Source: an uncultured Nitrosospira sp.
GTDB taxonomy: Bacteria > Nitrospirota > Nitrospiria > Nitrospirales > Nitrospiraceae
Reading direction: 5' to 3'
Assembly (NCBI GenBank): GCA_900696505.1
Contig: CAADGJ010000382.1
Location: 1 to 39,115 of the forward strand
DNA length: 39,115 nucleotides
The notes under the pieces were generated by a model. The model was not told the origin of the DNA, made no database searches, and saw only the letters and a list, made by a program, of their open reading frames with translations. Each line of letters opens with the position of its first letter. The stretch's first letter is position 1. The translations under genes and the position numbers were made by a program. Positions 12,134 to 38,340 of this stretch are shown here, in pieces.

Positions 12134-12144
12134 ATCGTACCGTT

Positions 12145-12968: not shown

Positions 12969-12969
12969 C

Positions 12970-14973: not shown

Positions 14974-14996
14974 CGCGGCAGATTTTTGGATTTACG

Positions 14997-16556
14997 ATGC
15001 TTGAAGAGTTCAGTTTCGGGTTCCCCATCCTCTCGTACCTGATCTTCCTCCCCCTGGTCGGGGCGGCGGTTCTCTGGCTGATTGACGATGAGGATCTTCT
15101 CAAATCGACGACATTGGGTATTACCCTCGTCGAACTGGCGCTCGCCTGCCTCGTCCTCGTGCGTTTTGTCCCTGATTCGGCGGCCATGCAGTTCGCCGAA
15201 CACGCCCGGTGGATGCCGGCGCTGGGAATCGGATATCACCTCGCCGTCGACGGCATCAGCGTGCTCTTCGTGGGGTTGACGGCCTTTCTGACGGTCTTGG
15301 TAGTGATCTATTCCTGGGACACGATCCGTAATCAGGTGCGCCTCTATTTCATGGCCCTCCTGGCCCTTGAAACCACCACGATCGGCATTTTTGTCTCTAT
15401 CGATCTAATCCTCTTCTTCGTGTTCTGGGAACTCATGCTCATTCCCAGCTACTTCCTGATCAAGCTGTGGGGGGGAGGAGCCGACCGCCATTACGCAGCT
15501 TTGAAATACGTTCTCTATACACTTCTGGGCAGCGTCTTTATGTTGGTCGGCATTGCCTTGCTCGACATTAACTATCACCAGTGGGCCGTGAGCCATCACA
15601 TGGATCACGTGTATTCATTCGACCTGCTTGAGCTGCTCTCCGTTCCAATTCCACTCTCGCAGCAGATTTTGATCTTCTGGCTCATGTTTATGGGGTTTGC
15701 GTTCAAAGCGCCGGTGTTCCCATTTCACACCTGGCTTCCTGATGCCCTCGTCGAAGGTCCGATCGGCATGGCCGTCATGTTGGCCGGCATGAAATTGGGC
15801 ACCTATGGATTCCTCCGCTTCACCTTCCCATTAGTGCCCGATGCATCAAAAAGCGAAGGAGTGGTTGGCATCGTCATGGTATTAGCCCTGTCTGCCATTC
15901 TCTATGGGGCGGTCGTGGCGCTGGTGCAATCAGATTTCAAACGATTACTCGCATTTAGCAGTATCAGTCACCTCGGATTTGTGGTGGTGGGCCTCTTTGC
16001 GTTGAATTTCCAGGGACTCCAGGGCAGCCTGTTGACCATGATCAATCTGGGGTTCAGCACGGCCGGCCTCTTTTTCATGGCCGGGTTCCTGTCAACCCGC
16101 CAACAGAGCTCGCACTTATCGTCCTTCGGAGGTTTTGCCAAGCAGGCTCCGCTCCTGGCGACCTTCCTTCTTTTGATCGGCATGGCGTCGATCGGACTGC
16201 CTGGCACCAACGGATTCGTCGGGGAATTCTTGATTCTTTTGGGTGCCTTCAAAGCGAAATGGTGGTTCGGGGCCGTGGCCGTACTCGGCGTGATCTTCGG
16301 AGCTGCGTATTTTCTGTGGTATTACGAGCGCGCCATGCTCGGCCCGCTCAGCAAACACGTGTCGGCGGCCGTCAAAGATCTCCACATGCGCGAGATCACC
16401 ATTGCCCTCTCGCTCTCCATTATGATTTTGTGGATCGGCCTCTATCCCTCACCCTTCCTCAGAATGATGAATGGATCCATTCAAGCACTCGTCGACCGGC
16501 TTGATCGTGCGAAAGTGGCCTCAGTAGACACTGTTATCCACGTGCCAGCGAAGTAA
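14997..16556 (+). CDS. nuoM: NADH-quinone oxidoreductase subunit M, first copy
   Basis: FWELMLIPSYFLI, FKAPVFPFHTWLPDALVEGP (TM7 Lys present), FVGEFLILLG. Confidence 0.94.
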   Translation: MLEEFSFGFPILSYLIFLPLVGAAVLWLIDDEDLLKSTTLGITLVELALACLVLVRFVPDSAAMQFAEHARWMPALGIGYHLAVDGISVLFVGLTAFLTVLVVIYSWDTIRNQVRLYFMALLALETTTIGIFVSIDLILFFVFWELMLIPSYFLIKLWGGGADRHYAALKYVLYTLLGSVFMLVGIALLDINYHQWAVSHHMDHVYSFDLLELLSVPIPLSQQILIFWLMFMGFAFKAPVFPFHTWLPDALVEGPIGMAVMLAGMKLGTYGFLRFTFPLVPDASKSEGVVGIVMVLALSAILYGAVVALVQSDFKRLLAFSSISHLGFVVVGLFALNFQGLQGSLLTMINLGFSTAGLFFMAGFLSTRQQSSHLSSFGGFAKQAPLLATFLLLIGMASIGLPGTNGFVGEFLILLGAFKAKWWFGAVAVLGVIFGAAYFLWYYERAMLGPLSKHVSAAVKDLHMREITIALSLSIMILWIGLYPSPFLRMMNGSIQALVDRLDRAKVASVDTVIHVPAK

Positions 16557-16559
16557 GAT

Positions 16560-18215
16560 ATGGCTGAATACACGCTGCTCATCATTTTGTTCGCGCCCTT
16601 TCTGGGAGCCCTGGGATTAATTTTCGTCTCCAACCGTCAAGTTTCGCTGGTACGAGGCATTGCCGCCGGTTCGGCGTTTGTCTCGTTGGCCGCCTCCGTC
16701 TATCTCTTTTATGCCTATGATTCAGTGAAGGGCGGCTATCAGTTCATCCAGCGGATTGAGTGGTCCCGACAGCTCGGCATTTCCCTGCATCTCGGCGTCG
16801 ATGGCATTGGCACTCCGCTGGTGCTTGCCTCAGGCATTTTGTTGTTCGCCGGCATCTTCGTCTCCTGGCATATCAAAGACCGGATGAAAGAGTTCTACAT
16901 CTGGATCCTGATTCTCGCTGCCGCGACCATCGGCGTCTTCATGTCGCTCGACTTATTCTTCCTGTACTTCTTCTATGAAATGTCCGTCATCCCCATGTAC
17001 CTACTTTTGGGCATGTGGGGCAGTCATACCAAGAAATACCTTGAAATGACGGACCCCGAAGGCCTGAAACAACGTGACTCCGTCGGCTTTATCTTCAACT
17101 TCGGCGCAAACAGCAAAGAATATGCGGCGATGAAGCTGGTCCTGTTTCTTTCCGCCTTTGCCGTGGCCGCCTTGATGGGGATTCTGCTCATCTACAAATT
17201 TTCCGGACTGAACACGTTCGATATCCTGATCTTGCGCGAGAAAGCCCATTTCTCAGGGCCGTTGGCCACGCTCATCTGGCTCCTGATTTTCTTCGGCTTT
17301 GCGTCCATCGCGCCGATCTGGCCATTGCATTCCTGGTCTCCGGTAGGTCACGCCGCCGCCCCGGCCGCTACCAGCATGTTGCATGCCGGCGTGCTGATGA
17401 AACTCGGCCACTTTTCGATCATTCGCGTGGCGTTCGAAATTCTTCCAGAGACCACCCGAGAACTGATGCCCAGCGCCGCGGTGCTCTGTATCTTCAGCAT
17501 TATTTATGGCGGGCTGGTGGCGTACTATGCGAAGGACACGAAATACGTCATCGGTTATTCAAGCTCAAGTCATATGGGCTATGTCTTCTTGGGCATGGCG
17601 GCCTTGGACTACATCAGCCTCAGCGGAGCCGTCATCTACATGTTCGCGCATGCCATGGCCACCGGCATGCTGTTCGCCATGGCCGGCTGGGTCTACGATC
17701 AAACACACACTCGAGACATCCCGTCCCTGGGAGGGCTCTCCAACCGGATGCCGTTTATCTCTGCGGCCTTCGTCATCGGTTGCATGGCCTCGATCGGAAT
17801 GCCCGGGACCGTCAACTTTATCGCTGAAGTGATGATCATCGTCGGCAGCTGGAATAAATACCCTTTCCAAGTCGTCGTGGCAGTGCTCGGCATCGTGTTG
17901 ACCATGGCCTACCTCTTCAAGATGATGCGCGGCCTCTTCTACGGTTCGATGGCCGAAAAGTATAGCCACTCGCACGACGCCGTGGCAGTGGTCGATCGCA
18001 TGCCCCTGCTCATTATGATTACGGTGAGCATCAGCTTCGGCATTTTCCCGGGACATCTCTACTCCGTGGTCCGATCAGGGGTCGACCCGCTGATCGCGCG
18101 TATTACCAAAGTGGTCCCGGTCGCAGAGCTTCCGATGAACAGTCCACAAGCCAGCTCGCACACCATGCCCGTGCCTGTTCCCGGTGAGGCGATTGCGAAG
18201 GTAACCTCGCGATGA
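16560..18215 (+). CDS. nuoM: NADH-quinone oxidoreductase subunit M-like, second copy (M')
   Basis: FFYEMSVIPMYLLLGMWG, APIWPLHSWSPVGHAAAPAATSMLHAGVLMKLG, FIAEVMIIVGSW. Canonical TM7 Lys replaced; soluble insertion after the EMSVIP helix. Confidence 0.88.
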   Translation: MAEYTLLIILFAPFLGALGLIFVSNRQVSLVRGIAAGSAFVSLAASVYLFYAYDSVKGGYQFIQRIEWSRQLGISLHLGVDGIGTPLVLASGILLFAGIFVSWHIKDRMKEFYIWILILAAATIGVFMSLDLFFLYFFYEMSVIPMYLLLGMWGSHTKKYLEMTDPEGLKQRDSVGFIFNFGANSKEYAAMKLVLFLSAFAVAALMGILLIYKFSGLNTFDILILREKAHFSGPLATLIWLLIFFGFASIAPIWPLHSWSPVGHAAAPAATSMLHAGVLMKLGHFSIIRVAFEILPETTRELMPSAAVLCIFSIIYGGLVAYYAKDTKYVIGYSSSSHMGYVFLGMAALDYISLSGAVIYMFAHAMATGMLFAMAGWVYDQTHTRDIPSLGGLSNRMPFISAAFVIGCMASIGMPGTVNFIAEVMIIVGSWNKYPFQVVVAVLGIVLTMAYLFKMMRGLFYGSMAEKYSHSHDAVAVVDRMPLLIMITVSISFGIFPGHLYSVVRSGVDPLIARITKVVPVAELPMNSPQASSHTMPVPVPGEAIAKVTSR

Positions 18216-19708
18216 CTTTCTCCCTGACGCTTTCAGCCAGCGATCTTCTCCTCCTGCTTCCCGAACTGTTTCTCACGCTCTGGCTGTGCGTCGTCCTGGC
18301 CGTGGATTTTTCGTTCAAACGCATCGTCCAGGAACAATTGGCCTACCTGACCATCTTGGGAGTGATTATCACCCTGGCCTGCCTCGCATGGTTCGACATG
18401 ACCGGCATCACCGGCACCCTGTTCGGGAAGATGTTCGTCGTCGATCGCATGGCGATCTTCTTCAAAGTCATGATCCTCCTGGCCACGATCCTGGTCATTC
18501 TGCTTTCGATCGACTATGTGCATCGCTTCTCGCTCTTTCGAGGCGAATATTATTTCCTCGTCGCGATGTCGGCGTTAGGCATGATGTTCATGGCCTCGGC
18601 CAATGATCTCTTATCGCTCTTCGTCACCCTCGAGTTTGCGACCTTCGGCTTTTACGTGCTGGTCTCCTATCTGCGAGACGACATGGCGTCGAACGAGGCC
18701 GGCCTCAAATTCTTTATCCTCGGAGTCTTTGCGGCAGGATTGCTGGCGTACGGCATCAGCCTCGTCTACGGCGAAACCGGCAAGCTCGTCTTCTCCGACA
18801 TGAGTGGCGCGAACCCGACGACGGGATTAGTCATCGGCTTCCTGCTGATCTTTGCGGCATTAGGATTCAAAATCGGCGCCGTTCCCTTCCATTCCTGGAT
18901 CCCCGATACGTATCACGGCGCACCGACCCCTGTGACGGCGTTCCTGTCCATCGCCCCGAAAGTCGCGGCCTTCGCCATCCTGCTTCGGTTGTTCCTTGTC
19001 GCGCTGGCCACGTTTAAGCCCGCGTGGGCCTTGCTCATCGTCGCCGCATCTATTCTATCGATGACGTACGGCAATATCGTGGCAATCGCCCAACGAAACA
19101 TTAAGCGCCTGCTGGCCTATTCCGGTATCGCGCAGGTCGGAAATGTCCTGATCGGTCTGGCCGCAGGAACCAAGATGGGCACTGACTCAATCTTGTTCTA
19201 CCTGTTGACCTATCTCTTCGCAAACCTCGGCGCCTTTGCGGTCATCATGGCGATCAGCAACTCCGTGGGCAGTGATGAGATCGACGATTATCGCGGACTC
19301 AACCGTCGCTCGCCCTTTCTGGCGTTTGCCATGTTAATTTTCCTGCTCTCACTCGCAGGGGTTCCGCCACTCGCCGGCTTTATTGGGAAACTCTATATCT
19401 TTGTCGCCGCCATCAAAGAAGGCCTCTACATTCTCATTACCGTCGGCCTCGTCAACATCGTTGTCTCGATGTACTACTATCTGATCGTCGTCAAGAAGAT
19501 GTACATCAACGAACCGCTCGACTCCTCTCCCATCAAGACCACGGGTCCGCTGCGAGCAGTGATCTATGTCGGCCTGGCCGGGACGCTCGTAATCGGCATC
19601 TACCCCCAACCGTTCCTCGATTGGGCTGTAGCAGCTACGCTGATGTTTTCCAATCTCATTGGACCCGCTGCTTCCCTGACTCCGCCGGTCACCCCGTTCG
19701 GGGGCTGA
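18212..19708 (+). CDS. nuoN: NADH-quinone oxidoreductase subunit N
   Basis: GFKIGAVPFHSWIPDTYHGAPTPVTAFLSIAPKVAAF; 4-nt overlap with the upstream gene. Confidence 0.95.
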   Translation: MTFSLTLSASDLLLLLPELFLTLWLCVVLAVDFSFKRIVQEQLAYLTILGVIITLACLAWFDMTGITGTLFGKMFVVDRMAIFFKVMILLATILVILLSIDYVHRFSLFRGEYYFLVAMSALGMMFMASANDLLSLFVTLEFATFGFYVLVSYLRDDMASNEAGLKFFILGVFAAGLLAYGISLVYGETGKLVFSDMSGANPTTGLVIGFLLIFAALGFKIGAVPFHSWIPDTYHGAPTPVTAFLSIAPKVAAFAILLRLFLVALATFKPAWALLIVAASILSMTYGNIVAIAQRNIKRLLAYSGIAQVGNVLIGLAAGTKMGTDSILFYLLTYLFANLGAFAVIMAISNSVGSDEIDDYRGLNRRSPFLAFAMLIFLLSLAGVPPLAGFIGKLYIFVAAIKEGLYILITVGLVNIVVSMYYYLIVVKKMYINEPLDSSPIKTTGPLRAVIYVGLAGTLVIGIYPQPFLDWAVAATLMFSNLIGPAASLTPPVTPFGG

Positions 19709-26113: not shown

Positions 26114-26623
26114 TCAAGAGAATCGACGGACCTGTTCAGCCAGCGTCCCGGCGATCATGCCAAGGTCAAACGGCCAGGCATACCGGAGCTCGACGCCAGG
26201 GTACTGAGGCCGGAGATGTTCGAGAATTTCCGGGATCTCCACTTCCGAGTGAGACCCGCCGGGCGTAAACATCGTGGTCGCCACGGTAATGTGGGTCGCA
26301 CCCTGCTTCGCGAGTTGATCGACTGATTCCTCCAACGTCGGCGCACAAAACTCATTATAGGCCACCGCAAACAATACATCCCCCAGCTTGGCGCGCAATT
26401 GCGCGGCCACCGCCTCGAGTCCTGCCTGATAAGGGTCGGTCTCCGCATTCCTCGGCCATTGACGAATCTTGGCGTCCAGCTCCATTTCTTCAGCCGAAGC
26501 CGGTTGCTTCGCGGCACGCCGCTGCGCCTCCAGTCGTTTCAGTTTCGTCACCATGTCTTGAGGACACCCTCTGGGAATCCCGCCATGTCCCACCAGAATC
26601 ACACCTTTACGCACTGTTGCCAT
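26114..26623 (-). CDS. CbiX/SirB-like sirohydrochlorin chelatase family protein
   Basis: GVILVGHGGIPRG, NEFCAPTLEESVDQLAKQGATHITVATTMFTPGGSHSEVEIPEIL. Start set at MATVRKG. Confidence 0.75.
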   Translation of the reverse strand: MATVRKGVILVGHGGIPRGCPQDMVTKLKRLEAQRRAAKQPASAEEMELDAKIRQWPRNAETDPYQAGLEAVAAQLRAKLGDVLFAVAYNEFCAPTLEESVDQLAKQGATHITVATTMFTPGGSHSEVEIPEILEHLRPQYPGVELRYAWPFDLGMIAGTLAEQVRRFS

Positions 26624-26661
26624 TTCGTCAGTCCTCCATTCAATGTCACATCCACCGATAC

Positions 26662-27030
26662 TTACTTCGCAACACTGGCCTCTAAGAATTCCTGCAAATT
26701 GGTCTTGCCATACCGGCTCGCCGGACACACCGTGCGAATAAATTTCGCCACGAGCGCCATCACCCTTTTCACAGCGGCAGTTTTTTCGGGGTCCGTGGCA
26801 GGCAGCAGCCGAACGGTGATGGTGGTGTCATGTTGTTTCAACTGAATAAAAAAGCTCCGTGCCACCCCCTGTTCGATCACCACCGCATCGAGCAGCGCCT
26901 CCCTGCCGCTCTTCGCCAGATAGAACTCCTGGACCTTGAGAATTTCCTCGTCAGCCCGTTGGAGCATCGGGGCGAAATTCTGATAGAGACTTTGAAGGTC
27001 ACCGGCACCCTCGACCACGACATGCGGCAT
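26662..27030 (-). CDS. Conserved-looking hypothetical protein
   Basis: 122-aa ORF in an otherwise gap-free minus-strand array; no family recognised. Confidence 0.6.
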   Translation of the reverse strand: MPHVVVEGAGDLQSLYQNFAPMLQRADEEILKVQEFYLAKSGREALLDAVVIEQGVARSFFIQLKQHDTTITVRLLPATDPEKTAAVKRVMALVAKFIRTVCPASRYGKTNLQEFLEASVAK

Positions 27031-27040
27031 GACGTCCTTT

Positions 27041-27994
27041 CTAGACGTGATTCCTGAGCATCAACTCCTTCGGATGCGGATTCAGATACACCTGCTCGCG
27101 AATATACTCGACATCGAAGAGCTGCACATAATGTTTGATCAGCGTGAGGGGGACGATCAACGGCGTGAGTCCTTGATGGTAATCCCCGATCACTCCCAGT
27201 AACTCCGCCTTTTCTTGCGCATCAAGCCGTTCCTTGAAATGTCCGAGGATATGATGCAGCACATTCACATGTTTGCGCACCGTCGCTCGAACCGCCAGGG
27301 CCTGCATGAACAGTTCGCCATATTGAAGCGCCAGATCCTTAGGGCGATACTCGCTCACCTGTGCCACCAACCGGCCCAGCTGGCGATAGTGCGGCGCGCT
27401 ATGCGCCAGCAGTAGGTACTTATGGATGGTGTGAAACCGCACCACTGCCTGCCTCGTCGCACCGCTGTTCATCAGGTCCCGCCAACGCCGATAGCAGAAT
27501 ACCCGTTCGATAAAATTCTCACGCAGCAATGGATCATTGAGGCGTCCTTCTTCTTCTACGGGTATCAACGGAAAGCGGCCAAGAAACGCCCGCGCGAATA
27601 GCCCCACGCCCTTGCGACCTGGCATGCCGTGCTCGTTGTAGGTCCGAACTCGTTCCACTCCACAACTGGGCGAATCTTTTTTGAACACAAAGCCGGATAA
27701 GTCCGCGCCGGCCAACTCTTCGAGGCGCCTGTCCGCCATGACTTCCAAGGCGCGGGTATGATCCTGGCCGCTCTTGAGCGTGACCAACCGCGGCTGTTGC
27801 GGATTGCCGATCAACCGCATAGCTTCTCTCGGTGTGCCCAGTCCCGCCTCAACCTCAGGGCAGACCGGAACCCATTCCACATAACGGCCTAACACGTCAG
27901 TCAAGAAGGCATCCCGCTTGTGGCCGCCATCGAAGCGGACCTCCTCACCAAGCAAGCACCGGCTGATGCCGAGACGGAGCGTCGCGGCCGTCAC
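27041..27994 (-). CDS. DUF523 + DUF1722 protein (YbgA-like)
   Basis: LGISRCLLGEEVRFDGGHKRD (DUF523); HKYLLLAHSAPHYRQLGRLVA...LPHPKELMLRN-type DUF1722 tail. GTG start at 27994 overlaps the phrB TGA (GTGA). Confidence 0.85.
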   Translation of the reverse strand: MTAATLRLGISRCLLGEEVRFDGGHKRDAFLTDVLGRYVEWVPVCPEVEAGLGTPREAMRLIGNPQQPRLVTLKSGQDHTRALEVMADRRLEELAGADLSGFVFKKDSPSCGVERVRTYNEHGMPGRKGVGLFARAFLGRFPLIPVEEEGRLNDPLLRENFIERVFCYRRWRDLMNSGATRQAVVRFHTIHKYLLLAHSAPHYRQLGRLVAQVSEYRPKDLALQYGELFMQALAVRATVRKHVNVLHHILGHFKERLDAQEKAELLGVIGDYHQGLTPLIVPLTLIKHYVQLFDVEYIREQVYLNPHPKELMLRNHV

Positions 27995-29430
27995 GTTGAG
28001 ACCTTCTGTTTGCCGAGATCCAGATATTCCTGCCGGGCCTGCCGATGATTCACGATAGGCTCCGGATAATCCGATCCGATGCGGCATCCGACGCGGATTT
28101 GTTCTTCTTGCGGCATGAGCTGCGGTTCATGAATCCATTTTGTCGGCACGGAAGTCAATTCCGGCACATAGCTTCGCAGATAATGCCCATCAGGATCGAA
28201 TTTTTCACTTTGGAGCGTCGGGTTAAAGATGCGATACCCCTGCATCGCATCCGTTCCGGTAGAGGCACACCACTGCCAGTTTCCGTTGTTGGCCGCCACA
28301 TCTCCATCCACCAGGTGCTGCATGAAGTATCGCTCGCCGCTTTGCCAATCGATCCGAAGATCCTTGACCAGGAACGACGCCACCACCATACGCACACGAT
28401 TATGCATCCAGCCTGTCTGATTCAATTGGCGCATGCCGGCATCCACAATCGGATATCCGGTACGGCCTTCACACCAGGCCGCAAAGAGCCGGTCGCGCTC
28501 AGGACCGGCAGGACGAGGAGCGGGAAGTCCCGGCTTGACCTTGAACGGCCCTTCGGTGACATGGGGAAAGGCCATCAGCACTTGCTGAAAAAATTCTCGC
28601 CAGACCAATTCGTCCATCCAGGTGAACACGTCGGGGCGGGATACCTGACCGCCTTTGGAGAGGGTCTGTAACGCGGCATGCACCATTGTCCGCGTCGAGA
28701 TCGTTCCGAATCGCAAATGAGGAGAAAGCTTCGACGTCCCGTCTTGCGCTGGAAGATTTCGTCCACTGACATAACTATGGACCGGCTTTTTCAAAAACCA
28801 CTGCAGTCTGGCTCGCGCCGCCTGTTCGCCTGGTTCGATCCACATCGGTACCGATTCGTAACCCAACTCCTGCACCGTGGGCCACGCCGACACCTTCATC
28901 GCTGTAGACGCCGCGGGGGATGACGGCACGGATAGGAGCGGTGGTGCAGCAGACCGCCACTGAGTCCACCAGCGATCACGATAGGCGCTATACCGTTGAA
29001 AGGGGTCACCGGTTAACCCCCGCACTTCTTCGGCTTCGAACACCACGTGGTCTTTGAAGGTCCTCACCAGACGGCCCTGCTGAGCCAGGCGCTGTTGCAC
29101 CGTACGATCGCGCGCGACCGCCGCCGGTTCGTAATCACGATTCCAATAGACGGCATCCACGGCACATTCCTGCACCGTGCGCAGCACCGTGTCAATCGGC
29201 TCACCCATTCGCCAGACAAGTGTCACACCCTGTTCCGCCAAGGAGCGGCGCAAATCCTCAAGACAGCCCAACATGAACCCCACGCAGACGGATCCGAACA
29301 CTTGGCTGGCCAGCAATGGTTCGTCGAACACAAAAAGTGGCACGATCTCTTTGCATTCCTTGCAAGCAGCCGAAAGAGCAGGGTTGTCGTGCAGCCTCAA
29401 GTCACGACGAAACCAGACCAACCCCCTCAT
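27991..29430 (-). CDS. phrB: Deoxyribodipyrimidine photolyase, class I
   Basis: GLVWFRRDLRLHDNPAL, LSPHLRFGTIS, PIVDAGMRQLNQTGWMHNRVRMVVASFLVKDL, DGDVAANNGNWQW. Confidence 0.95.
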   Translation of the reverse strand: MRGLVWFRRDLRLHDNPALSAACKECKEIVPLFVFDEPLLASQVFGSVCVGFMLGCLEDLRRSLAEQGVTLVWRMGEPIDTVLRTVQECAVDAVYWNRDYEPAAVARDRTVQQRLAQQGRLVRTFKDHVVFEAEEVRGLTGDPFQRYSAYRDRWWTQWRSAAPPLLSVPSSPAASTAMKVSAWPTVQELGYESVPMWIEPGEQAARARLQWFLKKPVHSYVSGRNLPAQDGTSKLSPHLRFGTISTRTMVHAALQTLSKGGQVSRPDVFTWMDELVWREFFQQVLMAFPHVTEGPFKVKPGLPAPRPAGPERDRLFAAWCEGRTGYPIVDAGMRQLNQTGWMHNRVRMVVASFLVKDLRIDWQSGERYFMQHLVDGDVAANNGNWQWCASTGTDAMQGYRIFNPTLQSEKFDPDGHYLRSYVPELTSVPTKWIHEPQLMPQEEQIRVGCRIGSDYPEPIVNHRQARQEYLDLGKQKVST

Positions 29431-29858
29431 AAATGAACCTCGCGAGACGAGGACGCTAGCCGCGTGTCCGGCGACAGCGGATCAACGAACAGCACTCGTC
29501 GCCAGGCCACATAGCAGAGAAACAGGGCCGTCGTGGCCATGAAACCCGTGCGCAGTTGGTGGAACCCGAATTGCCATTGATTCATCAGTTCACTGGTGAG
29601 GCCGAACCCCCCGTAGGCCATGGCCAATCCCCAGGCCCAGGGACGCAGAAAGATAAATCCGTAGCCGATCAAAAAATGGGCGGCCGGGGAATGCAGCTTC
29701 ACAACATAGGCCATCGGGCCGGTAATCGTCACGCCGAATAGTTTGAGCGCATAGGCGGGGAACCATTCAATGATGAGTACATCCAGCAGGCCCACCAGCA
29801 AAAAGAGCGCCCCGAATAATTTGATATCGATGCCGCGTTGACTCGTTTGCTGGATCAT
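29427..29858 (-). CDS. Small integral membrane protein, function unknown
   Basis: About four hydrophobic segments; 4-nt overlap with phrB; start set at MIQQTSQRG. Confidence 0.7.
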   Translation of the reverse strand: MIQQTSQRGIDIKLFGALFLLVGLLDVLIIEWFPAYALKLFGVTITGPMAYVVKLHSPAAHFLIGYGFIFLRPWAWGLAMAYGGFGLTSELMNQWQFGFHQLRTGFMATTALFLCYVAWRRVLFVDPLSPDTRLASSSREVHL

Positions 29859-29907
29859 GGTTCCAACCTCCTTACCTGGATACGTCATACCGTCAGGCTC
29901 CATCGCG

Positions 29908-30432
29908 TCACTGCACCCAGGCATCGGGGAATGCCTGCCACCAGGTCGTGGGATGCGCCTGTCGCCACTGAGTCTGTTCCTGCCAGAGGCGATCGGAGGC
30001 CGCCTTGTTCAACCGCACCGCCATCGCGGCGCTGACGTCAGACTGTTGGCGAACGCTGGTTTGGATCATTTCCTTCGCCATGCGTGCGAGACCACCGGGC
30101 GGATCGACGAGATCCTCGGTATGCCGGTACGCCAGGTTCAGATAGAGGTGCTCCACTGCCATCCAGCTTTCATCCTTGGACAGCTGTTCAAGATACGCGT
30201 CAATGGCCTGGTACACATAGGTCAACCGAACATAGGCCTCGACTGACGGGCGCTCCTGTAACGCCTGTTCACAACTCTCCAGCGCGCGACGATAGTCACC
30301 GGCCAGCAGATACAGCCCTGTTTTTTCGACCCCCGATAGCGTCGATGCCGGCGCGGGATTCGCCCGCACCTCGGTGAGGCATGTTCCCGAGACCATGAGA
30401 AGGCATCCGAGCAGGGTGATCATACGTTTCAC
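29908..30432 (-). CDS. Exported TPR-like hypothetical protein
   Basis: Signal peptide; GLYLLAGDYRRALESCEQALQERPS TPR-like. Confidence 0.65.
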   Translation of the reverse strand: MKRMITLLGCLLMVSGTCLTEVRANPAPASTLSGVEKTGLYLLAGDYRRALESCEQALQERPSVEAYVRLTYVYQAIDAYLEQLSKDESWMAVEHLYLNLAYRHTEDLVDPPGGLARMAKEMIQTSVRQQSDVSAAMAVRLNKAASDRLWQEQTQWRQAHPTTWWQAFPDAWVQ

Positions 30433-30439
30433 ACATCAC

Positions 30440-30925
30440 CTATTTGGCAGAGCCGCCATGTGATCCCATCTGCCCCTTGTACAGCGTCTGACCGGCCACC
30501 CGCGTCACGGCCACTTCGCGCACGGCAGTTTCTGCTTTGATTCCCAACCTGACAATCGTCCCCGGTTCGCCTCTCACCATCAAGGCCACCTGCTCATACG
30601 TCTTGCCGGTGACGACCGCACCGTCCACCGTGGTAATTTCATCCCCCGACTTGAGCCCGGCCTTCTCCGCCGGTCCATCCGGCAACACCTGTGCGATGTA
30701 CAACACCGCCGTGTCACCGACTCGCTCCGCTCCGACGTGCAACGAGACGCCGATGACGCCGTCCGGAATCGTGACCTCCAATCCATACGACCCTCCGGGA
30801 GTCCCGGACTTCTCATGTCCCTCCGCGGCCCAAGCCTTGCCGGTTCCCTCGGGCCACTGACTCAAACAGAGGCTCAAGACCCCGAGGGTGATCCATGCCG
30901 CCCTATACGTGTGTTTGCGCATCAT
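30440..30925 (-). CDS. Exported PDZ-domain protein
   Basis: IAQVLPDGPAEKAGLKSGDEITTVDGAVVTGKTYEQVALMVRGEPGT. Confidence 0.88.
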   Translation of the reverse strand: MMRKHTYRAAWITLGVLSLCLSQWPEGTGKAWAAEGHEKSGTPGGSYGLEVTIPDGVIGVSLHVGAERVGDTAVLYIAQVLPDGPAEKAGLKSGDEITTVDGAVVTGKTYEQVALMVRGEPGTIVRLGIKAETAVREVAVTRVAGQTLYKGQMGSHGGSAK

Positions 30926-30949
30926 GCACTCCCTTCTTCAGACCGACCG

Positions 30950-31426
30950 TTAAGAGGCCAACCCTACCAAGCACAGCCCTCCCAGGAGGACGAGCGAATT
31001 CAAATAGAGCGACCGCTGATGCAATCGCTCCCAAGAGGCCTTCAGAACCGGATCCACGGAACCACGACTTTCCTGTTCCTTAAGCTGATCTCTCATCGCA
31101 TTGCTCTGTGGGGTCAGTGGCGACCGGCAATAGGCTTCCGCCAGGAAGATGATCAGCCAGATACCACCCGCTGCCGACAGGCCCGGGCTGGCCCCACGAA
31201 TGACCAGGAGTGCGGTCACCGACACCAAACCACCGGCAGCCGCGCCCATTCCGAGGAGATAGTACGCAGGGAACAATTGCCGCACGACTTTCCCGAACTG
31301 CTCCGGGGCCAACTGCTTTGCCAGAACGGGAGCCACCACAAACGATAACAGCACCACCTTGCCCACCAGTATCGCCGCAGCCAGGCCGTGCAGATACTGC
31401 ATGATCGATTCAACGAGGAGGCTCAT
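30950..31426 (-). CDS. DUF4149-like membrane protein
   Basis: Four hydrophobic segments; family assignment from overall pattern. Confidence 0.6.
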   Translation of the reverse strand: MSLLVESIMQYLHGLAAAILVGKVVLLSFVVAPVLAKQLAPEQFGKVVRQLFPAYYLLGMGAAAGGLVSVTALLVIRGASPGLSAAGGIWLIIFLAEAYCRSPLTPQSNAMRDQLKEQESRGSVDPVLKASWERLHQRSLYLNSLVLLGGLCLVGLAS

Positions 31427-32340
31427 GCCCGCTGTTCCTTTGTCATAATCGCGCGCAAAGCCGGTTCCAGTGTCGGATATCGAAACCTGTAGCCCCCTGC
31501 TTGTGCCTTAGCCGGGTCGACGCGTTGTCCGGTTGTCATCAACGTTCCGAGCTCTCCCAAACCCAGACGCAATGCCAGCCCAGGAACCGGCAACCACGAT
31601 GGCCGGTGCAAGACCTTGCCCAGGATGCCGCAGAAGGCCTTCATCGTTTCCGGCCCAGGCGCAACCGCATTCACGGGACCGGAAACCTCCGGCGACTGCA
31701 GAGCCCACTGCACCAAGCCGATGAGATCGGCCCGGTGAATCCAGGAGACCCACTGCGTCCCAGGCAAGACCGGACCTCCCGCAAACAAACGGAACGGCAG
31801 CATCATTTTCGGCAATGCCCCGCCATCCCGTTCCAGAACCATCCCCGTCCGTAGAAGCACGACCCGGGTGCCGAACTGGCCGGCCCGGAGGGCCTCGGCT
31901 TCCCAGGCTGCGGATAATTGAGCGAGAAATCCCTCACCGAGCGGGGATCGCTCATCTAAGACCCGATCATCCTGGGGGCCGTAGTAGCCGATGCCCGAGG
32001 CGCTGATCAGCACAGGGAGCGGTCGAGGCCTGGTTGCTATCGCATCCACCAGCGATCTGGTGGCGAAAATACGGCTCTCGACGAGAATCCGCTTGCGGGC
32101 GCTTGTCCACCGTCCTTCCGCAATCGGCTCGCCCGCTAAATTGACCACCGCATCCGCCCCAGCGACCGCGTCCTGCCAGGCGCCGACTGACCGCGCATCC
32201 CACTCCACATAGCGTACCTTCGACTGCGTGGGGGAATGTGACTTGCGGCTCAGCACCACGACGTCGTGACCCGCATGCGACATTTCTTCCACGAGCGCAT
32301 GGCCGATGAAGCCTGTCCCTCCGGTGACGACAATGTTCAT
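31423..32340 (-). CDS. TIGR01777 family NAD-dependent epimerase (YfcH-like)
   Basis: MNIVVTGGTGFIGHALVEEM, DAVVNLAGEPIAEGRWT, ISASGIGYYGPQDD, ATG/stop overlap with the DUF4149 gene. Confidence 0.92.
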   Translation of the reverse strand: MNIVVTGGTGFIGHALVEEMSHAGHDVVVLSRKSHSPTQSKVRYVEWDARSVGAWQDAVAGADAVVNLAGEPIAEGRWTSARKRILVESRIFATRSLVDAIATRPRPLPVLISASGIGYYGPQDDRVLDERSPLGEGFLAQLSAAWEAEALRAGQFGTRVVLLRTGMVLERDGGALPKMMLPFRLFAGGPVLPGTQWVSWIHRADLIGLVQWALQSPEVSGPVNAVAPGPETMKAFCGILGKVLHRPSWLPVPGLALRLGLGELGTLMTTGQRVDPAKAQAGGYRFRYPTLEPALRAIMTKEQRA

Positions 32341-32370
32341 GTGGGAGCCTCCAATTCCGGCAGTCGTTCG

Positions 32371-32724
32371 CTACGGGGCGCGATCGGCGCCAGTCTCCGA
32401 GTCCTTTCCTTTATCCGTTGCCGCCTCGCGATGAGACGACTTCTTCGACGCACCGCCATTCGAAACAGCCGTCACACGCTGACTGAACTTCCGCTCTTTC
32501 GTACCATACAGCAAATTGGGAGGCGGACTATGCCGATTCTTGAGGATCACGGGATCCAGCACTTCGCCACACATGGCGCAATGCCACGCCGTAATATCGA
32601 TTTGGCCTGTATCATCCAGGAGATCAATATAATGCTGCGTCAATAATAACCCTCCGCAACGGGGACAGACGTGCTTGCCCGGCTGGGGAGGCATAAATGA
32701 TTCTGGTGTCCCATGTGTGTCCAT
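32371..32724 (-). CDS. Zinc-ribbon protein, paralogue of the 36555 protein
   Basis: CPRCGGLLLTQHYIDLLDDTGQIDITAWHCAMCGEVLDPVILKNRH; start set at MDTHGTPES. Confidence 0.65.
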   Translation of the reverse strand: MDTHGTPESFMPPQPGKHVCPRCGGLLLTQHYIDLLDDTGQIDITAWHCAMCGEVLDPVILKNRHSPPPNLLYGTKERKFSQRVTAVSNGGASKKSSHREAATDKGKDSETGADRAP

Positions 32725-32818
32725 TGGAACCCCCGACTTCGATATAAATAATCGTCCGCACCGTACCTTTCGCTGGTGTGTTGGCATTCCGCTCCGACAT
32801 ACGTGGCCACTCGTGGCA

Positions 32819-32950
32819 CTAGCGGACACGAGGATGCTCCCGGCTCGATCGCCTCACCATGACGTAGGCCGGGCGCCGCAGGCGCACATACAGCACCGCA
32901 CCGATACTGACCACGAAGGCCGCCATACCCAAGATCATTTCCTGTGTCAT
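32819..32950 (-). CDS. Small single-TM protein (43 aa)
   Basis: MTQEMILGMAAFVVSIGAVLYVRLRRPAYVMVRR... preceded by AAGGAGG ribosome-binding site. Confidence 0.5.
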   Translation of the reverse strand: MTQEMILGMAAFVVSIGAVLYVRLRRPAYVMVRRSSREHPRVR

Positions 32951-33134
32951 GCCTACCTCCTTCATCCCGCTGTTCGAAACGCCCGTTCCTGCACCCCTCT
33001 GGTGGTTCGCTGAGGGGACAGGTGCCTCCAAAGGAAGCACCCATCCGCCTCAACGGGAGGCCGCGTGCGGAGTCGCGGTACCTCCATGCTCACCACAGTT
33101 CTCGTTTCAACGAATGCCCCCATGAACCCATCGC

Positions 33135-33998
33135 CTACCTGGCTTTCGGCTCCGCGCCGGATGCGTCCTGGTGAGCCTGATCGTCAAGGCTCCGCACACA
33201 GCGAAACCCTGTCCCGTGTGTTTGAAGCGCGAATCCTCCCCGGCCCCGTGCCGTCGCGGTGATGTCTGAATGCGGGCTGTGCCAGGATCCTCCTCGAATC
33301 ACACGCACGATACCTTTGTCTGGTCCCTGGGGATTTTTTGTCGGAGCATTCGCGTAGTAATCCGGGTCATACCAGTCTTGAACCCACTCCCGGGCGTTGC
33401 CCGACATATCCTTGATCCCGTACGGAGAATCGCCAGCCGGCAAGGCCCCCACAGGGTGAAGCGTCTTGTCCTCCACCCACTCGCGGTCGTAGTTAGCTCG
33501 CTTCGACGTCGGCGTGTCCTCTCCCCACGGAAAGGTCCGGCCATCGGTTCCACGTGCGGCCTTTTCCCACTCCGCTTCCGTGGGCAATCGTTTCTTGGCC
33601 CAGGCGCAATAGGCCTTCGCGTCATACCATGTGACCTGCACGACCGGCAGTTGTTCGATTCCCTTGGCCGACACCAGCACACCGGTTCCGTAGGGATTGG
33701 GCGGACTCCGGTGGCCTGTGGTCGTGACGAATGTCATGTACCGTTCATTCGTGACTTCCACTTCGTCCATGGCGAAGGCATCCACCTGCACAGTGCGTTG
33801 CGGCCATTCGTCGGCCCTCCCTTTCGGGCTCTGCGTGCCCATCAAGAACGGTCCGGCCGGAATGGTTACCATGAGAACCGGATCCAGCTCTTTGACAGCC
33901 GGCGCCGCAAACACAGGGGACAGCGCGAGCGTACAGCCGGCCGCCAACAGGCCCGCATATCCCCATCTGGTACGTCTCCTGGTCACACCTTGTGTCAT
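33135..33998 (-). CDS. SUMF1/FGE-fold exported protein (copy 3, without C-terminal extension)
   Basis: MVTIPAGPFLMGTQ, LPTEAEWEKAARG, GNAREWVQDWYDPDYY, RVIRGGSWHSPHSD, GFRCVRS. Confidence 0.88.
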   Translation of the reverse strand: MTQGVTRRRTRWGYAGLLAAGCTLALSPVFAAPAVKELDPVLMVTIPAGPFLMGTQSPKGRADEWPQRTVQVDAFAMDEVEVTNERYMTFVTTTGHRSPPNPYGTGVLVSAKGIEQLPVVQVTWYDAKAYCAWAKKRLPTEAEWEKAARGTDGRTFPWGEDTPTSKRANYDREWVEDKTLHPVGALPAGDSPYGIKDMSGNAREWVQDWYDPDYYANAPTKNPQGPDKGIVRVIRGGSWHSPHSDITATARGRGGFALQTHGTGFRCVRSLDDQAHQDASGAEPKAR

Positions 33999-34363
33999 TT
34001 CTTCTGCTCCTTGCTCCCCTCTATTGCCCGTTCCGTGTGAGTCTTGATCTGCGCGACGAGCTTTTCCACCGCACCTGCGTCGCCACGGTCGGCCGCTTCC
34101 TGCGCTTTGGTCACGAGGGTTCTCGCTTCATGCAAATGTTGTTCGATTTGTGCTTGCAGATCGGGTGACGCCACGGTTCCCCCCAGCGCCGCACGATGGT
34201 ACACCTCCCAGGCGTGATCCACGCTGTGCTCCGCCTCATGCACCAGTTGCACCTTCTCCGGATGAGTGTGGCGGCTGGCGTCAATCGGCCCTGCCTGAAG
34301 TTCCATCGCGGATAGCAGCGCCGCCAACCCACCGATGATTGTGACAATTGTCCTGTGCCTCAT
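33995..34363 (-). CDS. SmbP-like His-containing periplasmic protein
   Basis: Signal peptide then helical HTHPEKVQLVHEAEHSVDHAWEVYH..IEQHLHEARTLVTKAQEAADRG; resembles SmbP of Nitrosomonas in pattern. ATGA overlap with the downstream SUMF1 gene. Confidence 0.5.
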   Translation of the reverse strand: MRHRTIVTIIGGLAALLSAMELQAGPIDASRHTHPEKVQLVHEAEHSVDHAWEVYHRAALGGTVASPDLQAQIEQHLHEARTLVTKAQEAADRGDAGAVEKLVAQIKTHTERAIEGSKEQKK

Positions 34364-34416
34364 ACCTCTGCCTCCGTCATAGGAAACTCTCGGGTGCGAT
34401 AGACCTCCGTCCGACA

Positions 34417-35475
34417 TTACGGACGTTTCATCGATTGTTCGATGAGGGGTCGCAACTCCAACAGCTCGACATTCACGGGATCCATGGCCAATCCACGGCC
34501 CACTGCTTGTTGCGCCTCGTCGAAACGTTCCCGGCCCATCTCCACCAATGCCGTGATGTAACTATCCCGGATACGCTGCTCCCAGTCTGCTGGCGCCGTC
34601 TTGGCACATCGGAAGCCAAGCCCCACGCCGTAGCTGTTGTTGAGAGGATGGTTCCAGAAGCGATGCGTCGAGCGGATCGTGCCTTCCGGTGCTATCCAGG
34701 AACCGCCGCGAATCACACGCTTCTCGCCAACCGTCAGCCGATCCACATAGGTTCCGGTGCCACCAAGCCACAAGGGTTTTTCCGGGCCAGTGGGGTTCAC
34801 CATCGTTTCCAATCGTCCGTAATATTTCGGGTCGTACCAGTCGGCCACCCACTCAAAGACATTGCCCGCCATGTTGTACACGCCGTAATAGCTGGCGCCC
34901 TCAGGATGGGCATCCACCGGCTGGGTGGCGTTATGGTGCCGATCATAGTTCGCTTTATTCGAGTCGAAGTCGTTGCCCCATGGGTAGAGATTGCCGTTGG
35001 GACCACGAGCCGCCTTTTCCCACTCTGCCTCCGTCGGGAGCCGCTTGCCGCGATACTCGCAATAGGTTTTCGCGTCGATCCAGTTGACCCCGACCACAGG
35101 CTGTTGAGGCTTGTTCAATCGCGGATCGTCCCAATAGGCCGGAGCGGGGTGGCCGGTCGCCTTGATGAATTCGCCGTAGTCTTTATTTGACACCTCGTAC
35201 TTATCGATCAGATAGGAGTCCAGGAATACCGTGTGCGCAGGTCCTTCGTCGTGGAAGGCCTCCGCTGACCACGGCATGCTCATTCGCTTGTCGTACAGGG
35301 AAAGTCGACGGGTCGGTGCGGCCGCTTCCGTCCTGTCCAGTCCCATGATGGATGGGCCTTGTCCCACGTACACCATATCCTTCGGAATCTCGGCCTCGTG
35401 CGCCTGAGCGACAGAAGCCCCTGCGATGATCCCCATGACGAGTCCCGCCCTGACTACCGTTCCCATGACAGTCAT
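34417..35475 (-). CDS. SUMF1/FGE-fold exported protein (copy 2)
   Basis: LPTEAEWEKAARG, GNVFEWVADWYDPKYY, RVIRGGSWIAPEGT, GLGFRCAK; C-terminal helical extension; GGAGGAGG upstream. Confidence 0.9.
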   Translation of the reverse strand: MTVMGTVVRAGLVMGIIAGASVAQAHEAEIPKDMVYVGQGPSIMGLDRTEAAAPTRRLSLYDKRMSMPWSAEAFHDEGPAHTVFLDSYLIDKYEVSNKDYGEFIKATGHPAPAYWDDPRLNKPQQPVVGVNWIDAKTYCEYRGKRLPTEAEWEKAARGPNGNLYPWGNDFDSNKANYDRHHNATQPVDAHPEGASYYGVYNMAGNVFEWVADWYDPKYYGRLETMVNPTGPEKPLWLGGTGTYVDRLTVGEKRVIRGGSWIAPEGTIRSTHRFWNHPLNNSYGVGLGFRCAKTAPADWEQRIRDSYITALVEMGRERFDEAQQAVGRGLAMDPVNVELLELRPLIEQSMKRP

Positions 35476-35541
35476 GCCGCACCTCCTCCTGCTGAAGGTC
35501 CGACAGGGAGGTGGTCATCCCACCTCCTCTGCGGCCAGCAT

Positions 35542-36504
35542 TTACTTCTTCATCGACTTCTGAATAAGCTCACGTGTTGCCAGGTATTCTTTATTGTTCG
35601 GATCCGCAGCCAGGGCCTTCTCGATGGAGGCCATCGCATCTGCGTTCTTCTCCGCACCCATGCCCACGAGTGCCTGAATGAAGGCATCGCGTCCGGCCTG
35701 GGCCGCTTCCTCCGACACCGCGGTCACCGACTTCGCGCAGCGGAAGCCAAGTCCAACGCCGTAGGAGTTATTCTCCGGCTGATTCCAGAATCGATGGCTG
35801 GTGTGCAATGAGGTTTCCGGAGCGAGCCATGATCCGCCACGCAAAACTTTGACCGGGCCTTGATTGGCAAAGTTGTAGCCCTTGTCCGCGCCCTTCGGGT
35901 TCAATGCGTTGCTGGTCTTGTAGTATTTGGGGTCATACCAGTCGTCGACCCACTCAAAGACGTTACCGGCCATGTTGTAGACGCCGTACCCGCTCACGCC
36001 CTCAGGATAGGAATCGACCGGCATCGTGCGGCCCACGTTCTGTCCATAGTTGGCTTTCTTCGGATCGAGGTGATGCCCCCACGGATAATGGTTATCGCCT
36101 TCCGGCCCCTTCGCGGCCTTTTCCCATTCCGCTTCGGTGGGCAAGCGCTTGCCGTCCCACTTGCAGAACGCATTCGCATCCGTCCAGCTCACTCCGACCA
36201 CCGGCTGTTCCGGCTTGCTCAGACGGGGATCATCCCAATAGGCCGGGGCGGGGTGGCCCGTGGCTCGCATGAATTCCTTGTAGCGTGCATTCGAAGCTTC
36301 AAACTTGTCGATCAGGTAGGCATCGAGCACCACCTGGTGCCGCACCTCATCCGAATGTTCATTGCTGCCCATGGTGAATTCACCCTTCGGGACAAGCACC
36401 ATGTCCTTGTTCTCGTTGCTGGCATCTGCGGCAATGGCGAAGGATGTCGCCCCCGCCACCAGCAGCACTCCTATTCCCATCTGAACCTTGATATGACTCC
36501 GCAT
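35542..36504 (-). CDS. SUMF1/FGE-fold exported protein (copy 1)
   Basis: MVLVPKGEFTMGSNEH, LPTEAEWEKAAKG, GNVFEWVDDWYDPKYY, VLRGGSWLAPETS; start set at MRSHIKVQ with AAGGAGG upstream. Confidence 0.9.
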   Translation of the reverse strand: MRSHIKVQMGIGVLLVAGATSFAIAADASNENKDMVLVPKGEFTMGSNEHSDEVRHQVVLDAYLIDKFEASNARYKEFMRATGHPAPAYWDDPRLSKPEQPVVGVSWTDANAFCKWDGKRLPTEAEWEKAAKGPEGDNHYPWGHHLDPKKANYGQNVGRTMPVDSYPEGVSGYGVYNMAGNVFEWVDDWYDPKYYKTSNALNPKGADKGYNFANQGPVKVLRGGSWLAPETSLHTSHRFWNQPENNSYGVGLGFRCAKSVTAVSEEAAQAGRDAFIQALVGMGAEKNADAMASIEKALAADPNNKEYLATRELIQKSMKK

Positions 36505-36554
36505 GTGAAACCTCCTTGGTTGTGAACAGTCGACTCGTGTGACCATGAAGGCCG

Positions 36555-36851
36555 CTACACAGAGGGCTGTCTGTGCAACGCCTGGTTCAGCGCATTCATC
36601 TCCCGGCCTGCGCCAGCCGATTGCTGCAGATGACGATTCCAGCGAATAACCGGGTCGACCACGTCCCCGCATTGCACGCATCGGCGGGTGGGGCAATCGA
36701 GCCCGTCTTTGCCGCTGAGAAGATCCGTGCAGAAATCACGAACCATCAGTCCGCCGCACCGGGTGCAATTCGAGTCCTGCCAAAAGCTCGAACGATCGAT
36801 TCGCCTCTCGTGTTGCTCTGCCTGTCCTTGCAATGCGTTCGTGGTTGCCAT
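36555..36851 (-). CDS. Zinc-ribbon protein, first gene of the minus-strand array
   Basis: CTRCGGLMVRDFCTDLLSGKDGLDCPTRRCVQCGDVVDPVIRWNRH; GGAG six bases before ATG at 36851. Confidence 0.65.
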   Translation of the reverse strand: MATTNALQGQAEQHERRIDRSSFWQDSNCTRCGGLMVRDFCTDLLSGKDGLDCPTRRCVQCGDVVDPVIRWNRHLQQSAGAGREMNALNQALHRQPSV

Positions 36852-36870
36852 GGTCACTCCTGCCTAGTTA

Positions 36871-36964
36871 TGTCCAATGTTTGCATCGACTATGTCTAAT
36901 GTTTAAACTATTCTGTCCAATGTGTCAATAGTTATTATTTAAAATATTTGACAAACATTGGACA
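36871..36964. repeat. Operator-like repeat cluster: three direct and one inverted copy of TGTCCAATGTTT
   Basis: TGTCCAATGTTT 36871-36882; TGTCTAATGTTT 36893-36904; TGTCCAATGTGT 36914-36925; AAACATTGGACA 36953-36964 (perfect reverse complement of copy 1). Confidence 0.85.
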
Positions 36965-36977
36965 TTGAACATATACT
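36948..36977 (+). promoter_or_regulatory. Promoter of the MerR/B12 regulator
   Basis: TTGACA 36948-36953, 18-bp spacer, TATACT 36972-36977. Confidence 0.75.
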
Positions 36978-36988
36978 TAGCCGTACCA

Positions 36989-37906
36989 ATGAATATCCAC
37001 AGAATTCATAGGGTTGCGAAGCTTACCGGCCTAAGCCGCGATGTCATTCGGGTGTGGGAGCGACGATTTGACCTCTTAAAACCAACCAGAGGTGCGAACA
37101 GATATCGTAACTACTCCGATGATGACGTGGCATTGTTGCGATACTTGAAACAGCAATTAGATGGCGGAGCGTCGATCGGCGATCTCGCGCGTCTCGGCCG
37201 TGAAGAATTGATGAATCGTGTGCGGGCCGCTGCTCCCCGAACGATCCCGGTCGACAATACCTTTGAGCGCCTGTTGCGCGAATTACTGTCTGCGCTGGAA
37301 CCACTCGATCGCGTGACGTTTGAAAAACGCTTGAATGGCGCTGTGGCTGTGGTGCCGTTTGAGGAGGCGCTCCACGGAATTTTGCTTCCGCTACAGGAAC
37401 GGGTGGGACAACTGTGGCATACCGGCCGTATCAATGTGGCCGTCGAACACTACGTCACCAGCCAAATCAAACAAAAGCTCTATGCGGCCATGAACCAGCT
37501 GCCCGTGGCGGAGTTCGGCGCCACCGTGGTGATTGCGTGTCCACCGCAAGAAGAGCATGACCTGGCCGCGCTTGCCGTCGCCTATCGATGCCGGGTTCGG
37601 GATTGTCGCGTCTATTACCTCGGCGCGAATGTACCGATCAGTTCATTGAGCAAACTCTGCCGCGAAGTGGCGCCGGACCTCACCATCCTATCCATCACGA
37701 TCGCTCCTTCGGATCCGCTTGCGATCGACCTCGTGCAGGCACTGATTCACGATGTGGCACCGGTTTCTAAAATTATCGCCGGTGGCCGAGGAGCGCTGGC
37801 CATGCGCCAACACTTTGCAGAATCAGGCATCGAACTCCTGGAATCCTTCGGCGATTTGGATGAGACGTTGGAGCGATTCACCCGACGATTTCCGATTCCA
37901 GGATAA
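36989..37906 (+). CDS. MerR-family regulator with B12-binding domain (CarH/LitR-like photoreceptor)
   Basis: MNIHRIHRVAKLTGLSRDVIRVWERRF HTH; W-x9-EH (WHTGRINVAVEH); E-x-H candidate Co ligand (QEEHDLA). ATG 36989 preferred because TTG 36965 lies between -35 and -10. Confidence 0.88.
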   Translation: MNIHRIHRVAKLTGLSRDVIRVWERRFDLLKPTRGANRYRNYSDDDVALLRYLKQQLDGGASIGDLARLGREELMNRVRAAAPRTIPVDNTFERLLRELLSALEPLDRVTFEKRLNGAVAVVPFEEALHGILLPLQERVGQLWHTGRINVAVEHYVTSQIKQKLYAAMNQLPVAEFGATVVIACPPQEEHDLAALAVAYRCRVRDCRVYYLGANVPISSLSKLCREVAPDLTILSITIAPSDPLAIDLVQALIHDVAPVSKIIAGGRGALAMRQHFAESGIELLESFGDLDETLERFTRRFPIPG

Positions 37907-37923
37907 CGAAGGGAGCTCTTCTG

Positions 37924-38340
37924 ATGGTTGGGTATCCCCTCACCGTTTGGTATGACGGCGCCTGCCCTCTGTGCTCTCGCGAAATGGCCTTCATGAAACG
38001 ACTCGACAGAAAACGGAGACTCCAGTTCTGCGACTTCTCCGATCCCGACTACGATGTCGCCGCCAGCGGAATTCCTCTATCCGAGCTCGGCGCCGTGATT
38101 CACGCGCAATGGGAAGATGGGACAGTCATCAGGGGTGTCGAAGTATTTCGCGCGATCTGGCAGGCTGTCGGTCTGGGATTTCTCACTCGAATGAGCCGCC
38201 TGCCGCTCATCGATCCGCTTGTGGTACAGGCCTATGCCTGGTTTGCAAGAAATCGGCTCTGGCTCACCGGCCGCACGGTTTGCACTGGAGGTCAGTGCCG
38301 GAACAAATCTGCCGCCAACGCGGCACCTCCGTCTGCATAA
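37924..38340 (+). CDS. DCC-family thiol-disulfide oxidoreductase-like protein (DUF393)
   Basis: LTVWYDGACPLCSREMAFMKRLDRKRRLQFCDFSD. Confidence 0.88.
   Translation: MVGYPLTVWYDGACPLCSREMAFMKRLDRKRRLQFCDFSDPDYDVAASGIPLSELGAVIHAQWEDGTVIRGVEVFRAIWQAVGLGFLTRMSRLPLIDPLVVQAYAWFARNRLWLTGRTVCTGGQCRNKSAANAAPPSA

Follow-up and report, generated by a model that had tools for sequence, protein, structure and literature searches.

A candidate CarH-type light switch facing a photorepair and envelope gene array in Nitrospira

What does a MerR regulator with B12-binding domains sense, and what does it control, when it stands back to back with a photolyase-bearing gene array in a nitrifier genus? The question is raised by a Nitrospira contig of 39,115 nucleotides (the window, which is the entire contig C382 of the 3.25-Mb draft genome G000), in which a plus-strand regulator gene (merR) diverges from a minus-strand array of 16 genes at 36851-26114. 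An earlier note, made from the sequence alone, had proposed a B12-dependent, light-responsive regulon in a nitrite oxidizer. The core of that proposal, a CarH/LitR-type adenosylcobalamin (AdoCbl) regulator over a divergent photorepair array, was supported by cofactor residues, predicted fold, operators on both promoters, occurrence at a single locus, synteny and light- or UV-related partner genes in relatives; we infer responsiveness to light and B12.

The explanation that we consider probable as a whole is the following. In the dark, a repressor of the CarH type (class I LitR) carrying AdoCbl would bind repeats on the -35 and -10 elements of two divergent promoters and would shut off its own gene, together with the DCC-family gene behind it, and the facing array. 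Blue-green light would break the Co-C bond, the repressor would be released and the array would be expressed. The output would include, for repair, a cyclobutane pyrimidine dimer (CPD) photolyase and RudS, which would remove near-UV-reactive 4-thiouridine (s4U) from tRNA, and, for the envelope and periplasm, three SUMF1-fold proteins, a His-rich protein, PDZ and TPR proteins and membrane proteins; the same release would yield the DCC thiol oxidoreductase. Control of the array by the regulator through its operators is very likely and light is the likely main signal, while a single transcript running through to cbiX is only somewhat favored.

Regulator and operator repeats

The regulator starts at ATG 36989 and not at TTG 36965, a start that is conserved as MN[IT]HRIHRVAKL. 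Its closest solved relative by sequence was Thermus CarH/LitR (phmmer, 1.4e-28; about 29% identity), and the top 12 PDB matches of its AlphaFold2 model (pLDDT 88) were all full-length CarH (best E-value 2.9e-18), with a TM-score of about 0.85 by target length for the cobalamin-binding domain. CarH residues W131, H132, E141, H142 and H177 correspond to W143, H144, E153, H154 and H190 of the regulator, and these cofactor residues were conserved across the class, being kept in 46-47 of the 47 homologues readable in an alignment that had two unreadable rows and a CarH row with placeholder N-terminal residues. The Wx9EH motif, which by a published rule separates CarH from the B12-independent CarA when intact (PMC9304148), was intact (W143...E153 H154). 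The semi-conserved histidine after the tryptophan, which belongs to the bis-His light state, was present as H144 (one relative, L031, has Arg), and the recognition helix RxWERRY read RVWERRF in the window and RVWERRY in many relatives. A PduO-type adenosyltransferase, the AdoCbl-making enzyme, was found in all eight genomes tried. AdoCbl binding, repression in the dark and release in the light are predicted properties of the regulator.

The gap between znA (ATG 36851) and merR contained four copies of ACATTRGACA, each read on the appropriate strand and each fitting the published 11-bp CarH repeat nnnnTnnACAn, in which the -35 element is embedded (PMC9304148). In the merR promoter, two TnnACA cores, one at 36948 (the -35 element itself) and one at 36959, were exactly 11 bp apart. 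The copies in the array promoter were 21-22 bp apart and covered the -35 element, the -10 element and the region downstream. Among 24 same-genus loci, the operator columns were 96-98% identical vs. 72% in the remainder of the gap; conservation was 100% (-35) and 98.6% (-10) for the regulator promoter and 99.3% and 97.2% for the array promoter, whose -10 element is a poor consensus match and which the promoter scan did not call. Two or more copies occurred in the gap in 2 of 100,000 first-order shuffles. The distance from the -10 element to the merR ATG was 10-13 nt in 24 of 24 loci (36977-36989 in the window), and the regulator mRNA is predicted to be nearly leaderless.

The pattern TTGACAN{0,2}CATTRGACA was detected in 24 of 29 genus genomes and only at the merR locus, with no hit to the reversed-pattern control. 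The genome of the window also had the exact pattern on two 4-kb contigs (C20 and C45), both of which start on the merR flank of the operators and include an fge1 that is 85-86% identical to the window copy; they are strain variants of the same locus, i.e., the draft genome is a strain mixture. Sites made of a -35 element plus a repeat with up to three mismatches occurred at roughly the frequency of the reversed control in most of eight genomes, and no second target in a genome-wide regulon is claimed. A carotenoid target was likewise rejected: a squalene/phytoene synthase family gene was present in 29 of 29 genus genomes and the exact operator was at the merR locus only. Since the exact site is unique and mismatch counts resemble the control, the switch looks like a local, self-regulating, one-locus device.

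Synteny and the extent of control

The gene-neighborhood comparison called for in the earlier note showed that synteny extends over the entire block in about 24 genomes of the genus and across the family. The order held in the genus is merR-dcc on one side and znA-fge1-fge2-smbP-fge3-s73-znB-epimerase-DUF4149-PDZ-TPR-m165-phr-rudS-h122-cbiX on the other, with h122 and s73 the least constant genes; nearly all genus loci whose sequence extends that far had the DCC1-like gene next to merR, and the His-rich protein gene was kept between fge2 and fge3 in genus and family loci. At the left edge, pyrE and a rhodanese gene were not always adjacent and cbiX stayed. Fortuitous synteny was rejected because the block persists while its left neighbors change and the operator positions are conserved.

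Regulator homologues (E<=1e-30) occurred in 68 of the 296 genomes that made up the phylum sample, all in the same class. Two regulator clades were resolved in the family, A (the window and the N. defluvii record) and B (N. moscoviensis), each with support of 100/100; regulators of both clades stand before an array of this kind, and most of them have the same motif upstream. Of 79 named loci, whose short flanks cause the tail genes of the array to be undercounted, 61 had znA as the immediate left recognized neighbor of merR and 67 had fge1 to its left. Four loci (L134, L135, L136, and L138) contained clade A and clade B regulators about 4-10 kb apart, the second regulator being accompanied by operator copies of its own and by another SUMF1 gene close by. 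One 3-kb locus record (L233) is labeled Pyrinomonadaceae, which we took as mis-binning.

How far control extends along the array is a separate matter. The regulator could be a local one of the SUMF1 cassette (fge1 to fge3), with photolyase, RudS and the remaining genes forming a separate unit with internal promoters, a reading that we consider unlikely, though it can hold alongside the favored explanation. The cassette stays with merR in family f6, where photolyase and RudS are missing, a 94-bp gap follows fge3, and terminator-like sites occur within the array at no higher frequency than in shuffles. However, one genus genome (G013) has lost the whole cassette and keeps merR, the operators, znA and the photorepair genes, and f6 retains a dimer glycosylase-DUF1722 gene at the cassette end. 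Other losses were also seen: G016 was without fge2; a deletion in G028 takes the operators, znA, fge1, fge2 and most of merR, of which 57 residues are left, and spares phr and rudS; and the complete genome G022 had no match for merR, phr or fge1.

Light, cobalamin or redox as the signal

The partner genes of relatives bear on the signal. In three f6 loci (L141, L144, and L214) the cassette ends with a fusion of Pyr_excise, a pyrimidine-dimer glycosylase, to DUF1722 (7213-7908, plus strand, in L144); the genus instead has photolyase and RudS at a later point in its array. The fusion of Pyr_excise to DUF1722, otherwise paired with TudS, is a possible link between dimer repair and RNA. A gene for a BLUF blue-light sensor lies directly beside merR in one f2 genome of the same order (L149:15119-15574, plus strand). 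The f2 arrays carry an amine oxidase gene downstream and a rudS whose end overlaps the start of a second, divergent MerR/B12 gene (L149:3780-4739; also L209, L210, L212, and L219), which in L149 has Gln at the H142 position. Because non-homologous parts keep the same theme across relatives, these gene contents speak for an array whose task is to deal with UV/visible-light damage.

Several observations weigh against the light-switch explanation. The B12 motif D/ExHx2G/Px41SxT/Vx22-27GG was present as EEH190, x41, SIT, x27 and GG, with A193 in place of the classical G/P (ExHx2[A]x41SxTx27GG). The light signature from SignatureFinder (GxxW, EH, GxxH, and GxxxP; PMC11796333) was present in three of its four parts (GQLW, EH, and GANVP), with QEEH instead of GxxH; Q187 stands where most same-genus relatives have G. 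The NCBIfam CarH equivalog model NF052513 gave 128 bits, far below its cut-off of 400. Because of these three features, the regulator is classed by sequence as CarH-type and not as a CarH equivalog. The main repeats of the array lie 21-22 bp apart instead of forming tandem 11-mers, an exact operator copy within 400 bp was missing from 18 of the 79 database loci with a homologue, and internal promoters or terminators may exist within the array. As to the spacing, one head-to-tail dimer of Thermus CarH bridges the non-contiguous repeats DR1 and DR3 (PMC9304148), which are 22 bp apart because the repeats are tandem 11-mers; the array spacing would therefore be compatible with CarH geometry.

The main rival on the signal is a cobalamin-status switch, in which the regulator senses how much AdoCbl is available, or its oxidation, and frees the array for expression as AdoCbl runs low, light being incidental. 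Members of Nitrospira may have to salvage their B12: N. marina is auxotrophic for it and possesses only a cobalamin-dependent ribonucleotide reductase, MetH and methylmalonyl-CoA mutase (PMC8115632), and because this species needs exogenous B12 the sensor could also read cobalamin status. A CbiX-family gene, moreover, ends the block. However, the array encodes photorepair (photolyase and RudS) and not cobalamin transport, relatives have BLUF and pyrimidine-dimer glycosylase partners, and the Trp-His pair (131-132) is conserved. Derepression at low AdoCbl is inherent to CarH as well and is thus compatible with the light explanation, and we regard cobalamin status as an improbable primary signal. 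Still less probable is a CarA-like or reactive oxygen-driven regulator that binds the operators and responds to singlet oxygen or redox, as proposed for a Vibrio cholerae MerR protein (PMC5241685), instead of bound AdoCbl. Myxococcus CarA functions independently of B12 although it retains a B12 motif, class II LitR does not bind B12 and the window regulator deviates at positions 187 and 193. However, the Trp of Wx9EH is absent from CarA, and class II proteins have no recognizable Rossmann B12 domain; both features are intact here.

Array products and meaning for nitrifiers

The gene content and coordinates given in the earlier note, including a DCC-family gene after the regulator, agreed with Pfam and NCBIfam scans (Table 1), and several of its details changed. 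Its "many 4-nt overlaps" were overstated, as three are true (smbP-like/fge3, 33998/33995; epimerase/DUF4149, 31426/31423; m165/photolyase, 29430/29427) and the remaining ones probably come from over-long start choices. The His-rich protein had no Pfam or NCBIfam support as SmbP-like (no match to the SmbP Pfam family at E 0.1); it is small, His-rich and exported by appearance. Two zinc-ribbon-like open reading frames (ORFs) are present as described, with scores below Pfam cut-offs. The DUF523 and DUF1722 domains were confirmed, and the label "ybgA-like" gives way to RudS, the tRNA s4U desulfidase with TudS (DUF523)-DUF1722 architecture (PMC11417400), whose start may be internal, near 28000. The predicted fold of h122 had no PDB match at E<=0.001.

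Table 1. Genes, promoters and predicted operator sites of the regulator-array locus (window coordinates).
Feature	Coordinates	Strand	Basis or remark
merR/carH-like regulator, 305 aa	36989..37906	+	PF13411+PF02607+PF02310 (MerR_1, B12-binding_2, B12-binding)
DCC1-like thiol-disulfide oxidoreductase gene	37924..38340	+	PF04134 6e-27; directly after regulator
znA, zinc-ribbon-like ORF, array gene 1	36555..36851	-	weak Zn matches below cut-off
fge1, SUMF1/FGE-fold, apparently exported, without catalytic Cys pair	35542..36501	-	PF03781 2e-53; PDB alignment
fge2, SUMF1-fold, apparently exported	34417..35475	-	PF03781 3.5e-48
smbP, small His-rich protein, apparently exported (SmbP-like in the earlier note)	33995..34417	-	start probably internal
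fge3, SUMF1-fold, apparently exported	33135..33998	-	PF03781 5.8e-58
s73, short ORF, poorly conserved	32819..33040	-	ORF list, genus loci
znB, second zinc-ribbon-like ORF	32371..32829	-	Zn_Ribbon_TF 2e-4, below cut-off; start probably internal
TIGR01777-family oxidoreductase (epimerase)	31423..32340	-	329 bits vs. cut-off 207
DUF4149 membrane protein	30950..31426	-	PF13664 5e-13
PDZ-domain protein, apparently exported	30440..30925	-	family scan
TPR-like protein, apparently exported	29908..30432	-	TPR matches below cut-off
m165, membrane-type protein, no family match	29427..29924	-	conserved in genus and much of family
DNA photolyase (phr)	27991..29430	-	PF03441+PF00875; nearest structures class I CPD photolyases, 1tez/1owl 8e-102
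RudS, TudS desulfidase and DUF1722 in one ORF	27041..28087	-	PF04463 5.5e-40, PF08349 7e-43; both over cut-off
h122, 122-aa protein, no family match	26662..27030	-	model pLDDT 79
CbiX-family chelatase-like protein	26114..26623	-	PF01903 6.5e-13; last conserved gene, block edge in relatives
Regulator promoter, TTGACA-18-TATACT	36948..36977	+	11/12 consensus
Array promoter, -35 TTGACA (36928-36923), 17 bp, -10 TAAACA (36905-36900)	36900..36928	-	read from sequence
Operator copy 1, TGTCCAATGT, downstream of array -10	36871..36880	-	predicted site
Operator copy 2, TGTCTAATGT, overlaps array -10	36893..36902	-	predicted site
Operator copy 3, TGTCCAATGT, touches array -35	36914..36923	-	predicted site
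Operator copy 4, inverted, ACATTGGACA, in merR promoter spacer	36955..36964	+	predicted site

The SUMF1 proteins, described in the earlier note as an unfamiliar payload, are present, and they are not an odd add-on: the three apparently exported SUMF1-fold proteins and the His-rich protein, also exported by appearance, are the most constant partner of the regulator. Across the class sample, FGE1 shared 57-97% identity with the window copy, and its N-terminus, read by eye, is signal-peptide-like. It has GGSWLAPETSLHTSHRFW where FGE has its cysteine pair, and the catalytic, copper-binding pair was lacking from fge1 in all 17 aligned sequences; fge2 and fge3, judged from their translations alone, also lacked it. 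FGE activity of FGE1 is thus unlikely on sequence grounds. Within the family that includes FGE/SUMF1, EgtB, PvdO and GldK, the closest solved structures were human and bacterial FGE, from which FGE1 differs in its apparent export, its substituted cysteine pair and a distinct pocket that is conserved in the class. Our guess is that the cassette protects periplasmic machinery from light. Tentatively, the three SUMF1-fold proteins and their His-rich partner might constitute a hitherto unrecognized system of the class Nitrospiria for photoprotection or photorepair in the periplasm, one that a B12 light switch controls and that guards light-sensitive electron-transfer machinery outside the inner membrane.

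The regulator resembles CarH of Thermus thermophilus and Bacillus megaterium (class I LitR) in domain order, fold, AdoCbl-contact residues, -35-embedded TnnACA repeats and presumed dark repression. It differs in its target, a photorepair/envelope array instead of carotenoid genes, in its divergent, autoregulated layout and in array repeats at the DR1-DR3 distance in place of three or four tandem 11-bp repeats. In the portion of the published account drawn on here, the light-inducible genes of Pseudomonas class II LitR (PplR/PmlR) are phrB, litR, rudS, ufaM, folE, and cryB; those regulators likewise are MerR-type and lie near photolyase and RudS, but they lack the B12 Rossmann domain and act through LOV proteins, and that portion names no SUMF1 cassette. 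Light-responsive RudS operons also combine a TudS-DUF1722 gene with photolyase and a MerR regulator (PMC11417400), although the main text of that paper does not name Nitrospira, in which rudS lies within a 16-gene array.

Two other observations concern the same genome. A second photolyase-family gene lies at another locus (G000:C288:8620-9099), and positions 6016-19708 of the window hold complex I genes with two consecutive NuoM-like ORFs (14997-16556 and 16560-18215). The label nitrite oxidizer is a presumption from kinship, the genus holding the Nitrospira defluvii record; ammonia monooxygenase families gave no match, and the control genomes were equally without one, so absence is not established.

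A literature search found no description of a light regulator in Nitrospira. CarH-type switches themselves are already known; the one proposed here, in a genus of nitrifiers, would act on a photorepair/envelope array. The reach of such regulators would thereby be widened from carotenoids to photodamage of DNA and tRNA and to a SUMF1 cassette that is still uncharacterized. The locus is widely conserved in the family, including the N. moscoviensis and N. defluvii records. Nitrifiers are strongly photoinhibited, which makes a light regulator relevant to their physiology; in N. inopinata, the active light lies below 550 nm, and longer wavelengths have little effect (PMC9797979). The locus offers a concrete sensor, predicted operators at base resolution and a list of target genes, with which the light response of nitrite oxidizers becomes directly testable.

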